A stretch of 64,000 nt of DNA, from assembly GCA_009784555.1 (NCBI GenBank), contig WRBO01000003.1, forward strand, positions 1 through 64,000, read 5' to 3'. The notes below the pieces were generated by a model. The model was given only the letters and a program-made list of their open reading frames with translations. It searched no databases and had not been told where the DNA came from. The DNA comes from Bacillota bacterium. GTDB taxonomy: Bacteria; Bacillota; Clostridia; Christensenellales; UBA1242. Shown one piece after another: positions 6,169 through 61,505 of the stretch (positions are counted from its first letter, which is position 1; each line of letters begins with the position of its first letter). The translations under genes were made by a program, and so were the position numbers.

Positions 6169-7239
6169 ATGGTAAAAAGAATAGCTTGTTTGATGATTGT
6201 GATTCTTTTGATGGTGCCATCCATGTGGATATTGGGTGGATGCAATTCAAGGAACAATCCGCCATGTCTGGATGATTTGCGTATGATTGTTGCAAACATG
6301 CGTGCACGTTTGGGTGGGGCAAATGCAAGTTTCAGTATAAATCAAAGTTCCATTTTCGGCGGCGAAGCATATCAAAGATTTATTGTTTCGGGAAATAATG
6401 CATTGCATTGGGAGTCGGGTTCATGGGCGACAAACCCAGGGGATGGTTTTCGGGATTACTTTCATTATGGAAACGGAATGTTATACCATCACGCACCAGG
6501 GACAATAGGGCAGCATGGATGGACGGGCGGAGAAAATATATCACATCGTTTCTTGGTGTCCGAACCATCGGACCGTGAACATTTTAATATGTTGGGTGCG
6601 GTAACGATGGGGCACAGATTAGCGAACGATGTTTGGCAAAAAACCATGCTCTTTGTCCACAGCGGTGAAAACCCGCATTGGTTTAATGTGCGGGGTGAAT
6701 GGTGGTATTTCAATATGCGCCATATCAGGGAACTTCCCGAAACGGCGATGATTGCGGGGCATACCGTTGGGTTACGATACAGGGCGAGGAACAACCGATT
6801 ACACACAGTTGAATATACATTTGACCCAGGGAACACGGGATGGGCACCGCCGCATGTGCGGTTGACATTTGATTTTTCGCCGCAACAAATAACATTGCCG
6901 TCGCAACCACAACCGCGAGAAGCATTGGATGTTGCAACCAATATTCGTATCCAGGATGATTCGATTGTTTGGGATGCGGTACCCGTGTATCGGACAAACC
7001 AATGGGGGGACACCAATCGTGACGATGGTGCAATTGTATTGATATATCGTGATGGTATATATGTAAATCAATTTAATGCATTTGATGATGGATTTGATTT
7101 TGATTGGGCGGTAATACATGGCGGGGCAGAGCGCGGGCGCACATATGAATTTATTATAGTCAGGGTGGATTGGACAGGCGGGCACAGTATGTCCGTACGG
7201 GCGGCACATTTCACCGCAACCATCCCGCAGGCAGGCTAA
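6169..7239 (+). CDS. putative lipoprotein of unknown function
   Basis: Signal peptide with lipobox-like LGGC; 356 aa. Confidence 0.7.
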   Translation: MVKRIACLMIVILLMVPSMWILGGCNSRNNPPCLDDLRMIVANMRARLGGANASFSINQSSIFGGEAYQRFIVSGNNALHWESGSWATNPGDGFRDYFHYGNGMLYHHAPGTIGQHGWTGGENISHRFLVSEPSDREHFNMLGAVTMGHRLANDVWQKTMLFVHSGENPHWFNVRGEWWYFNMRHIRELPETAMIAGHTVGLRYRARNNRLHTVEYTFDPGNTGWAPPHVRLTFDFSPQQITLPSQPQPREALDVATNIRIQDDSIVWDAVPVYRTNQWGDTNRDDGAIVLIYRDGIYVNQFNAFDDGFDFDWAVIHGGAERGRTYEFIIVRVDWTGGHSMSVRAAHFTATIPQAG

Positions 7240-28016: not shown

Positions 28017-28245
28017 AAAATGTAAAGGAGGGTAGTATGTCTGGTTTCTCGGCTGCCAACGAGATATGTTTTTCATCTTCTGCGGATACACTGTGGATGT
28101 TACATACTGTAGGTGTACCAGTCCTCGAAGACAAAAAACACATCTCGGGCGCGCCTCGAAAACCCCCCCCCAACAGAAAAACATAAAAAGTAAAAACCCC
28201 CCCCAAGGCCCAGAACGGAAAACTCTTCGGAATTTTGCTCGAACT
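28017..28245 (+). ncRNA. candidate structured RNA / intergenic element A (long hairpin plus paired C-tracts)
   Basis: Stem 28061-28080 / 28127-28146 (17 of 20 pairs), 46-nt apical region, GGCGCGCCTCG, C9 at 28163-28171 and C8 at 28197-28204. Confidence 0.5.
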
Positions 28246-44937: not shown

Positions 44938-45147
44938 TTAATCCTCCAACCCTATAAGGAAGTCGGCCGACACGCCGAAGAATTTCGCCAATTTGTAAAT
45001 TGCATCCGCCGATGGCATATTGTTACAATTCTCCCAATCATAAACCGAGGCACTGCTTGCTCCGATTGCTTTTCCCAATGTTTTCATCGACAGACCTTTC
45101 TCTGCTCTTAACTCTTTCAACCTCTCGGAAAATATTTTCAAATCCAT
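44938..45147 (-). CDS. small XRE-family HTH regulator
   Basis: 'FSERLKELRAEKGLSMKTLGKAIGASSASVYDWENCNNMPSADAIYKLAKFFGVSADFLIGLED'. Confidence 0.88.
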   Translation of the reverse strand: MDLKIFSERLKELRAEKGLSMKTLGKAIGASSASVYDWENCNNMPSADAIYKLAKFFGVSADFLIGLED

Positions 45148-45242
45148 ATATTTGATATTACTCGCTATACCGAACAAATCGCTTGCATGTTCGCTACTCC
45201 GAATGATAAAATGTTTTATTCGGAAAGGCGAACGGGGGAAAT

Positions 45243-45461
45243 ATGAACGAACTGGAACAATACACGGAAGACTTGCACGAGTTTTCACTATATATAAACA
45301 GAGTAGAAGAAATCGCCAATACCCTAGGCATCCCTCTCAAATCCATGTACATTGATTTCACCCCCGCCCGCTGGCTGGTCGATTACCTTAATGGTTATAT
45401 TGACTGTATGCTCGCAAATAACTTATCAACAAATGTCAGTAACCCTCTTGACCCTAAATAA
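45243..45461 (+). CDS. hypothetical 72-aa protein divergent from the XRE gene
   Basis: ORF with upstream GGGGGAAAT RBS-like sequence, divergent to the HTH gene. Confidence 0.5.
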   Translation: MNELEQYTEDLHEFSLYINRVEEIANTLGIPLKSMYIDFTPARWLVDYLNGYIDCMLANNLSTNVSNPLDPK

Positions 45462-45475
45462 TTCCATGTTACTGT
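45448..45475 (+). promoter_or_regulatory. promoter-like start of C-tract element B
   Basis: TTGACC, 16 nt, TGT-TACTGT. Confidence 0.5.
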
Positions 45476-45745
45476 AACATGGAGGGACGAAACATATGGA
45501 GCAAATAATTTTCGCCAGGCCGAGGACAAGCGGAAACGGCCTACCCACAAATGAAGCTCATTTCACTATGACCATGGTGGTCTTTCCGCCTCCACAGGCC
45601 AAGAAAATTCATTTGTCCACTATGTTTCGTCCCAACGCCACCTGTCCGCGTTCGGAATTCCGAAAACCCCCCCCCAACAAAAAACGCAAAAGTAAAAAAA
45701 CCCCCCCCAAGGCTTCGCCTTCGGACCAAACGAAAATTCTTCGAA
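45476..45745 (+). ncRNA. candidate structured RNA / intergenic element B (very long hairpin plus paired C-tracts)
   Basis: Inverted repeat 45484-45536 / 45583-45633, 46-nt loop, then C9 (45667-45675) and C8 (45701-45708) and nested TTCGGAC...GTCCGAA stem. Confidence 0.5.
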
Positions 45746-45831: not shown

Positions 45832-45861
45832 TTGATTTCGGGAGGGCACATGGTGTATACT
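45832..45861 (+). promoter_or_regulatory. candidate promoter for rpsB, downstream of element B
   Basis: TTGATT, 18 nt, TATACT; second TATAAT at 45868. Confidence 0.5.
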
Positions 45862-45965
45862 TATTGGTATAATCACTCTTTCGGTGATTCCTTGCCTGTT
45901 GCCCCATACGGGGTGGGCCAGGGGAGCTTGAACGGAAAGAGGGTGAAAAAACAGGAGGTTTTTTA

Positions 45966-61089: not shown

Positions 61090-61106
61090 TTTTGTCAGCA
61101 AGCATC

Positions 61107-61134
61107 TTGACTATGCAAATTTCCATGTTACTGT
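61107..61134 (+). promoter_or_regulatory. promoter-like start of C-tract element C
   Basis: TTGACT, 16 nt, TGT-TACTGT. Confidence 0.5.
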
Positions 61135-61505
61135 AGGGTGCAAAGGCATCGGCTGCCTAGGCAAGGTCTTTCTTTCGTCTGCGGATAAATCAGATGTGTT
61201 ATATCCGCCAGATATGGGGGAGTCCTCGACGTACAGAAAGACTTGCCTGGCGCGCCTCGCCCTCGTCCATGTTTTTGGATGACTGAAAATTGAAAACTAA
61301 ATATTTAACACCGTTTAACATGCTTACCTCCAACTGGAGGACGGTTACGCTCGTAATTTCACCAAACCACGGACCACGTGTTATAAATGTGAACATAGTT
61401 CACGGATTAATGGAAAACCCCCCCCAACGGAAAATATAAAATGGAAAACCCCCCCCAAGCTTCGCTTCGGGCCAAACGCTGCTCTCGCGGCCTCGGCCCG
61501 AACTA
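61135..61505 (+). ncRNA. candidate structured RNA / intergenic element C (long hairpin plus paired C-tracts)
   Basis: Stem 61159-61179 / 61228-61248 (~18 bp), 48-nt apical region, GGCGCGCCTCG, C8 at 61418-61425 and 61449-61456, nested TTCGGGCC...GGCCCGAA. Confidence 0.5.

Follow-up and report, generated by a model that had tools for sequence, protein, structure and literature searches.

Element B, an inverted repeat at positions 45,484–45,633 (forward strand) of the 64,000-nucleotide stretch of DNA analysed here (the window), belongs to a repeat family that is real, previously undescribed and found so far in one uncultured Clostridia species only. We think it probable that the family is new and restricted to this species, and that its members, element B among them, are small palindromic repeats that are mobile but non-autonomous and carry a promoter. 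A composite copy comprises a promoter unit (LEFT), a 115–150-nt hairpin built on a conserved internal-loop motif with two sides, and a unit with C tracts (RIGHT). As their positions show, such copies lie between genes, in very many cases at the stop codon of the upstream gene or immediately behind it.

The hairpin and its genomic family

Element B is the top-scoring inverted repeat (I1) of the window at the settings used. The first-pass annotation had described it as two arms (45,484–45,536 and 45,583–45,633) around a 46-nt loop and had proposed RNA folding as a check. This was carried out, and the arms pair as claimed: the minimum free energy of element B, which has type-1 arms, was −64.7 kcal/mol, while 200 dinucleotide shuffles had a mean of −33.4 (s.d. 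3.8; z = −8.3) and none was as low. The loop proved not to be unpaired. GGCC (45,538–45,541) pairs with GGTC (45,579–45,582) and ACC (45,543–45,545) with GGT (45,576–45,578), and these seven pairs are present in 25 of 25 aligned copies, leaving a true apical loop of about 30 nt (45,546–45,575) whose sequence is free to vary among copies. The small bulges and the ~8-nt internal loop, previously taken as mere interruptions of the stem, form a conserved motif rather than random mismatches, with 5′ CGAGGAC(M)AG facing 3′ CCTCCRCAG. Together with the inner helix and the apical loop, this motif makes up the conserved core CGAGGAC...TCCACAG (45,521–45,597, forward strand). No Rfam family was found on the hairpin, either at the gathering threshold in the window or at E ≤ 5 for eight copies.

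The assembly is an 88% complete Clostridia MAG of 1,120,884 bases in 29 contigs. A DNA search of it returned 26 places, and the core pattern CGAGGAC-N55..80-TCCRCAG had 27 exact matches, element B among them, with lengths of 74, 75, 77, 78 and 79 nt; the reversed-pattern control had none. Relatives with a shorter core (~11) bring the family to about 38 dispersed copies, the core listing of 39 including one at position 7,180 (L020) that is probably a chance match. An IMG/VR contig (L203) with 99.5% identity represents the same species and holds the same copy in the same place, so that an artefact of a single assembly can be dismissed for this copy. Among named relatives, RpsB matches uncultured Clostridia MAGs, with 79% identity to the nearest.

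Two further members lie in the window. Element A (about 28,045–28,160, reverse strand) is a related type-3 hairpin with a shorter core, its orientation reversed relative to its promoter. Element C (about 61,093–61,478, forward strand) consists of a promoter, a type-3 hairpin, likewise with a shorter core and opposite to its promoter, and a RIGHT unit. The similar loop lengths of A, B and C, which the first-pass annotation had pointed out, are not an independent coincidence, since the three belong to one modular family and the "loop" holds a conserved helix.

The promoter unit and other modules

Upstream of element B, the LEFT unit (45,434–45,483, forward strand) combines the palindrome CCATGTTACTGTAACATGG with a promoter module, TGTCAGTAACCCTCTTGACC-N16-TACTGT, whose −10 is extended by a TG. 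TTGACC (45,448–45,453) is separated by 16 nt from TACTGT (45,470–45,475), with the TG at 45,467–45,468. Allowing up to two mismatches, the unit TGTCASYAACCMYCTTGA had 52 matches in the assembly, compared with 0 for the reversed control. The extended −10, TGnTAnnnT, was found in 48 of 51 readable units, and in 47 of these 48 it lay exactly 16 nt from the −35, which is mostly TTGACN, TTTACA or TTGCAN; A/T-rich bases precede the unit. Numerous matches lie close to contig ends, where a repeat that interrupts assembly would be expected. A generic promoter consensus scan does not list the promoter in the LEFT unit of element B.

By its sequence, the LEFT unit is a promoter, and the promoter-like site noted upstream of the hairpin has thus turned out to be part of a repeated unit. 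The earlier prediction that the RNA begins with the hairpin also holds at this level: the promoter is directly upstream, the predicted start is no more than a few bases from the hairpin, and the arrangement recurs genome-wide. No LEFT unit lay near some 11 of the 27 long-core hairpins, several of which sit at the ends of small ORFs or XRE genes. Relative to the promoter, cores were found to point either way, which weakens a strand-specific role of the RNA, and G-T versus A-C mismatches gave no decisive strand asymmetry.

At one locus (L066), an apparent groES, recognised by eye, directly follows the same box, TGTCAGTAACCCCCTTGC, suggesting that this box may also serve a host promoter. The same promoter unit stands upstream of DUF6291 (PF19808) genes at L015 and L067 (G000 C10:43919 and C2:5765); this genome has two DUF6291 genes and the four congeners none.

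The RIGHT unit (45,663–45,712, forward strand) has two C8 tracts and an A-rich spacer and is repeated downstream of most LEFT units. Across loci L049–L078 the tracts are about 25–30 nt apart (AACCCCCCCCAACAAAAAACGCAAAAGTAAAAACCCCCCCCAAGG), and at L015 the 3′ end of the DUF6291 reading frame includes the unit. A further repeat, CCACGGACCACGTGTTATAAATGTG[stem]CACGGATTAATGGAAA, occurs at L255, L258, L097, L100 and L104 and at about 61,365–61,425 of the window; its short stem swaps yet stays complementary (GAAC/GTTC, GGGC/GCCC, GCGC/GCGC). Between promoter and RIGHT unit at L049, L051, L057 and L075 lies a fourth module (GCTTCACAAAAAAGAAGTTCGGGC...CGGGTGACGCG); its inner stem is swapped, and an ORF (MLHKKEVRA...) can be read in it.

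Conserved pairing and turnover of the arms

In 25 aligned cores, standard pairs occupy 98.5% of helix cells, compared with a mean of 88.5% in shuffled alignments (0 of 500 as high) and 45–63% in slid controls. The 14-pair inner helix (helix 4) is paired in all 350 of 350 cells. Thirteen of 24 pairs change on both sides; two-sided outnumber one-sided standard-pair cells by 70 to 11, 10 of the 11 belonging to a single G-U/G-C column, although two-sided and one-sided counts in this family are inflated by the relatedness of the copies. A G-U pair is retained in 15 of the 25 copies, and the internal-loop mismatches are invariant in all 25, whereas the apical loop is not conserved. This invariance suggests that the motif is also under selection by something.

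The outer arms fall into seven classes, and the long stems of L080 and L089 are each unique to one locus. Arms pair specifically with their own partners, with mean duplex energies of −37.4 kcal/mol for own arms, −18.7 across classes and −17.0 for shuffled arms. The poorly pairing hairpin L102 has its 5′ arm from one class and its 3′ arm from another, and looks like a product of recombination between copies. In a second chimera, L085 (L014), part of a type-2 5′ arm is fused to a type-1 hairpin that has an operator-like palindrome of its own. On a minimum spanning tree of the largest arm class, 16 changes were two-sided and pair-keeping and 7 one-sided, with 149 in unpaired columns. The same method gave more one-sided (20) than two-sided changes (15) in the second class, and concerted arm change is therefore not universal.

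Template switching between the arms of an inverted repeat homogenises the arms and inverts spacers, as described in two papers (PMC8604942, PMC8794818). An excess of simultaneous change with few intermediates matches this prediction, which suggests arm copying by template switching as the source of the excess of two-sided change. The stems stay paired through sequence turnover, probably by fold-back template switching in which one arm serves as the template for the other, while selection may keep the internal loops despite such copying. Whatever copies or processes the element probably recognises the conserved motif in a folded strand, and the promoter would yield an RNA starting with the hairpin. 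A more specific version, which we regard as a long shot, is a mobile hairpin copied through a self-primed fold-back intermediate: the internal-loop motif would be recognised, and each event would rebuild one arm and could invert the core, renewing the stems as exact complements. If true, such a hairpin would be a mobile element that mechanically maintains its own RNA-like structure.

It is still debated (PMC8794818) whether stem complementarity is preserved gradually, with compensatory mutations passing through G-U intermediates, or in one step, by a template-switch event. With about 38 hairpins in one small genome, seven arm classes, both core orientations and at least one chimeric copy (L102), this young family is a natural data set for deciding it, and a natural test of RNA hairpin evolution in which stems change by copy and their sides remain complementary.

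Insertion, distribution and alternative explanations

At element C, the insertion is seen by comparison of the sequence with congeners: the same gene pair is about 25–110 nt apart in three of them and about 516 nt apart here, and the promoter unit begins 4 nt past the stop codon. The place corresponding to element B in the congener G002 holds an unrelated gene. Composite copies are intergenic; in many cases only a few bases separate the start of the LEFT unit from the upstream stop codon, and at several loci the unit itself supplies the stop codon of the upstream ORF. Such promoter-bearing repeats at gene ends offer a route for reshaping a reduced 1.1-Mb genome.

Outside the species, blastn found no copy in four same-genus and 56 other relatives, the two other matches being only 31 and 23 bases long, and none in GenBank phages and plasmids or in more distant blastn searches. 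A covariance model found no copy in 298 family and 388 class genomes, at a setting that scores 10–13 candidates per genome and could miss weak relatives; one extra match (L187; G116) was rejected because it lacks the CGAGGAC core motif. The strict core pattern had no match in IMG/VR or in GTDB r220, from which records of this genome may be omitted, and the RIGHT-unit pattern had none in IMG/VR. Other looser-core matches in IMG/VR, apart from L203, fold without the arms, and the type-3 pattern had 13 matches there, at pattern level only.

The first-pass annotation had named a MITE-like mobile element as the alternative to its own reading, recognisable by precise empty sites with target duplication in relatives. 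Most of this picture emerged: the repeat is multi-copy, was not found in congeners and is matched by a short gap at element C. A target-site duplication was not established, with flanks read by eye and the intergenic DNA of congeners too diverged. Hairpin arms of about 30–50 nt provide the terminal inverted repeats of a MITE. The Y1 transposase (PF01797, Y1_Tnp) had no match in the 88%-complete MAG and is present in 5 of 14 control genomes. We have filed the family neither as a MITE proper, which would call for a demonstrated target duplication and transposase, nor as a REP or RPE, whose defining features fail here; in its workings it resembles a bacterial palindromic MITE to which a promoter has been added.

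Rickettsia palindromic elements (RPEs) are known for in-frame insertions in coding sequence. Here, a core length of 74–79 nt shifts the frame, for which reason an RPE-like protein-coding hairpin was rejected, and many copies follow a promoter unit. The likeness lies in being dispersed, lineage-restricted palindromes that fold as long stem-loops, as do the 105–146-bp RPEs (PMC2229807). Correia elements (NEMIS) of Neisseria, of about 105–155 bp, have putative promoters in their longer form, and their hairpin RNA has been put forward as a substrate of RNase III (PMC2229807). By description rather than sequence, they too are small repeats with a putative promoter and hairpin, but the present family has seven arm classes and no TA target has been shown. 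The bcr1 repeats of the Bacillus cereus group (~150–167 bp) are of a similar kind, with conserved structure and mobile-element character (PMC2267715 and a 2004 title cited there); the promoter unit and en-bloc stem replacement set our family apart, again by description. REPs and REPINs with TnpA-REP are likewise dispersed extragenic palindromes, but REPs are 20–40 bp long (PMC3733652), whereas hairpins here are 115–150 nt and a Y1 transposase was not found in this genome.

Could the family act purely as DNA? A fold-back MITE whose terminal inverted repeats are a DNA structure for a transposase, with incidental transcription and arms complementary purely through replication template switching, would account for arms that change together and for both core orientations, matching the spacer inversion and arm homogenisation reported for template switching (PMC8604942, PMC8794818). 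Fold-back copying should, however, erase the internal-loop mismatches that are invariant in 25 copies, and neither the G-U pair kept in 15 of 25 nor the promoter unit accompanying many copies fits well; we regard this account as rather unlikely. A multi-copy family of host small-RNA genes, each unit acting in trans or on its neighbour, seems more doubtful still, as it was not found in congeners, roughly 11 of the 27 long-core hairpins are without a neighbouring promoter unit and the apical loop varies, even though promoter geometry (extended −10 in 48 of 51), structure conservation and mixed orientation relative to the downstream gene would suit it.

As a cis-acting 5′ leader of rpsB would, element B precedes rpsB in the same direction and has a promoter. 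This explanation is disfavoured and very improbable: downstream of B there is still a probable native rpsB promoter, TTGATT-N18-TATACT (45,832–45,861, forward strand), as well as a leader similar to those of congeners, and elements of the same kind as B adjoin many unrelated genes. Element B therefore probably entered at a site ahead of the native promoter; rpsB does not require B as its leader, and a regulatory effect on rpsB is possible. The rpsB leader itself (ATAATCAC...CCTTGCC...GGTGGG; window 45,869–45,960 and L045–L047) appears conserved in the genus. Equally hard to credit is the idea that the repeats are attC-like sites for single-strand recombination in a cassette system resembling an integron. 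A structure conserved over variable sequence, and constant flanks around variable modules, recall such sites, but the copies are dispersed rather than arrayed, and no GTTRRRY/RYYYAAC (R″/R′) boxes were noticed by eye at the ends of the 27 copies. A promoter-carrying mobile palindromic repeat remains our preferred reading of element B.

The gene just upstream of element B is a small ORF of 72 aa (P0001; 45,243–45,461, forward strand) that has no Pfam hit and takes its last codons from the LEFT unit (NVSNPLDPK, stop); against IMG/VR it gave a single short match, at 52%. Divergent from it lies a small XRE/HTH_3 regulator (44,938–45,147, reverse strand), and such genes adjoin several copies. A small XRE regulator divergent from an ORF of about 60–75 aa recurs beside many hairpins (window 44,938–45,461, L009, L083, L084, L091 and L103), and the place of the small ORF is filled by two different small-ORF families.
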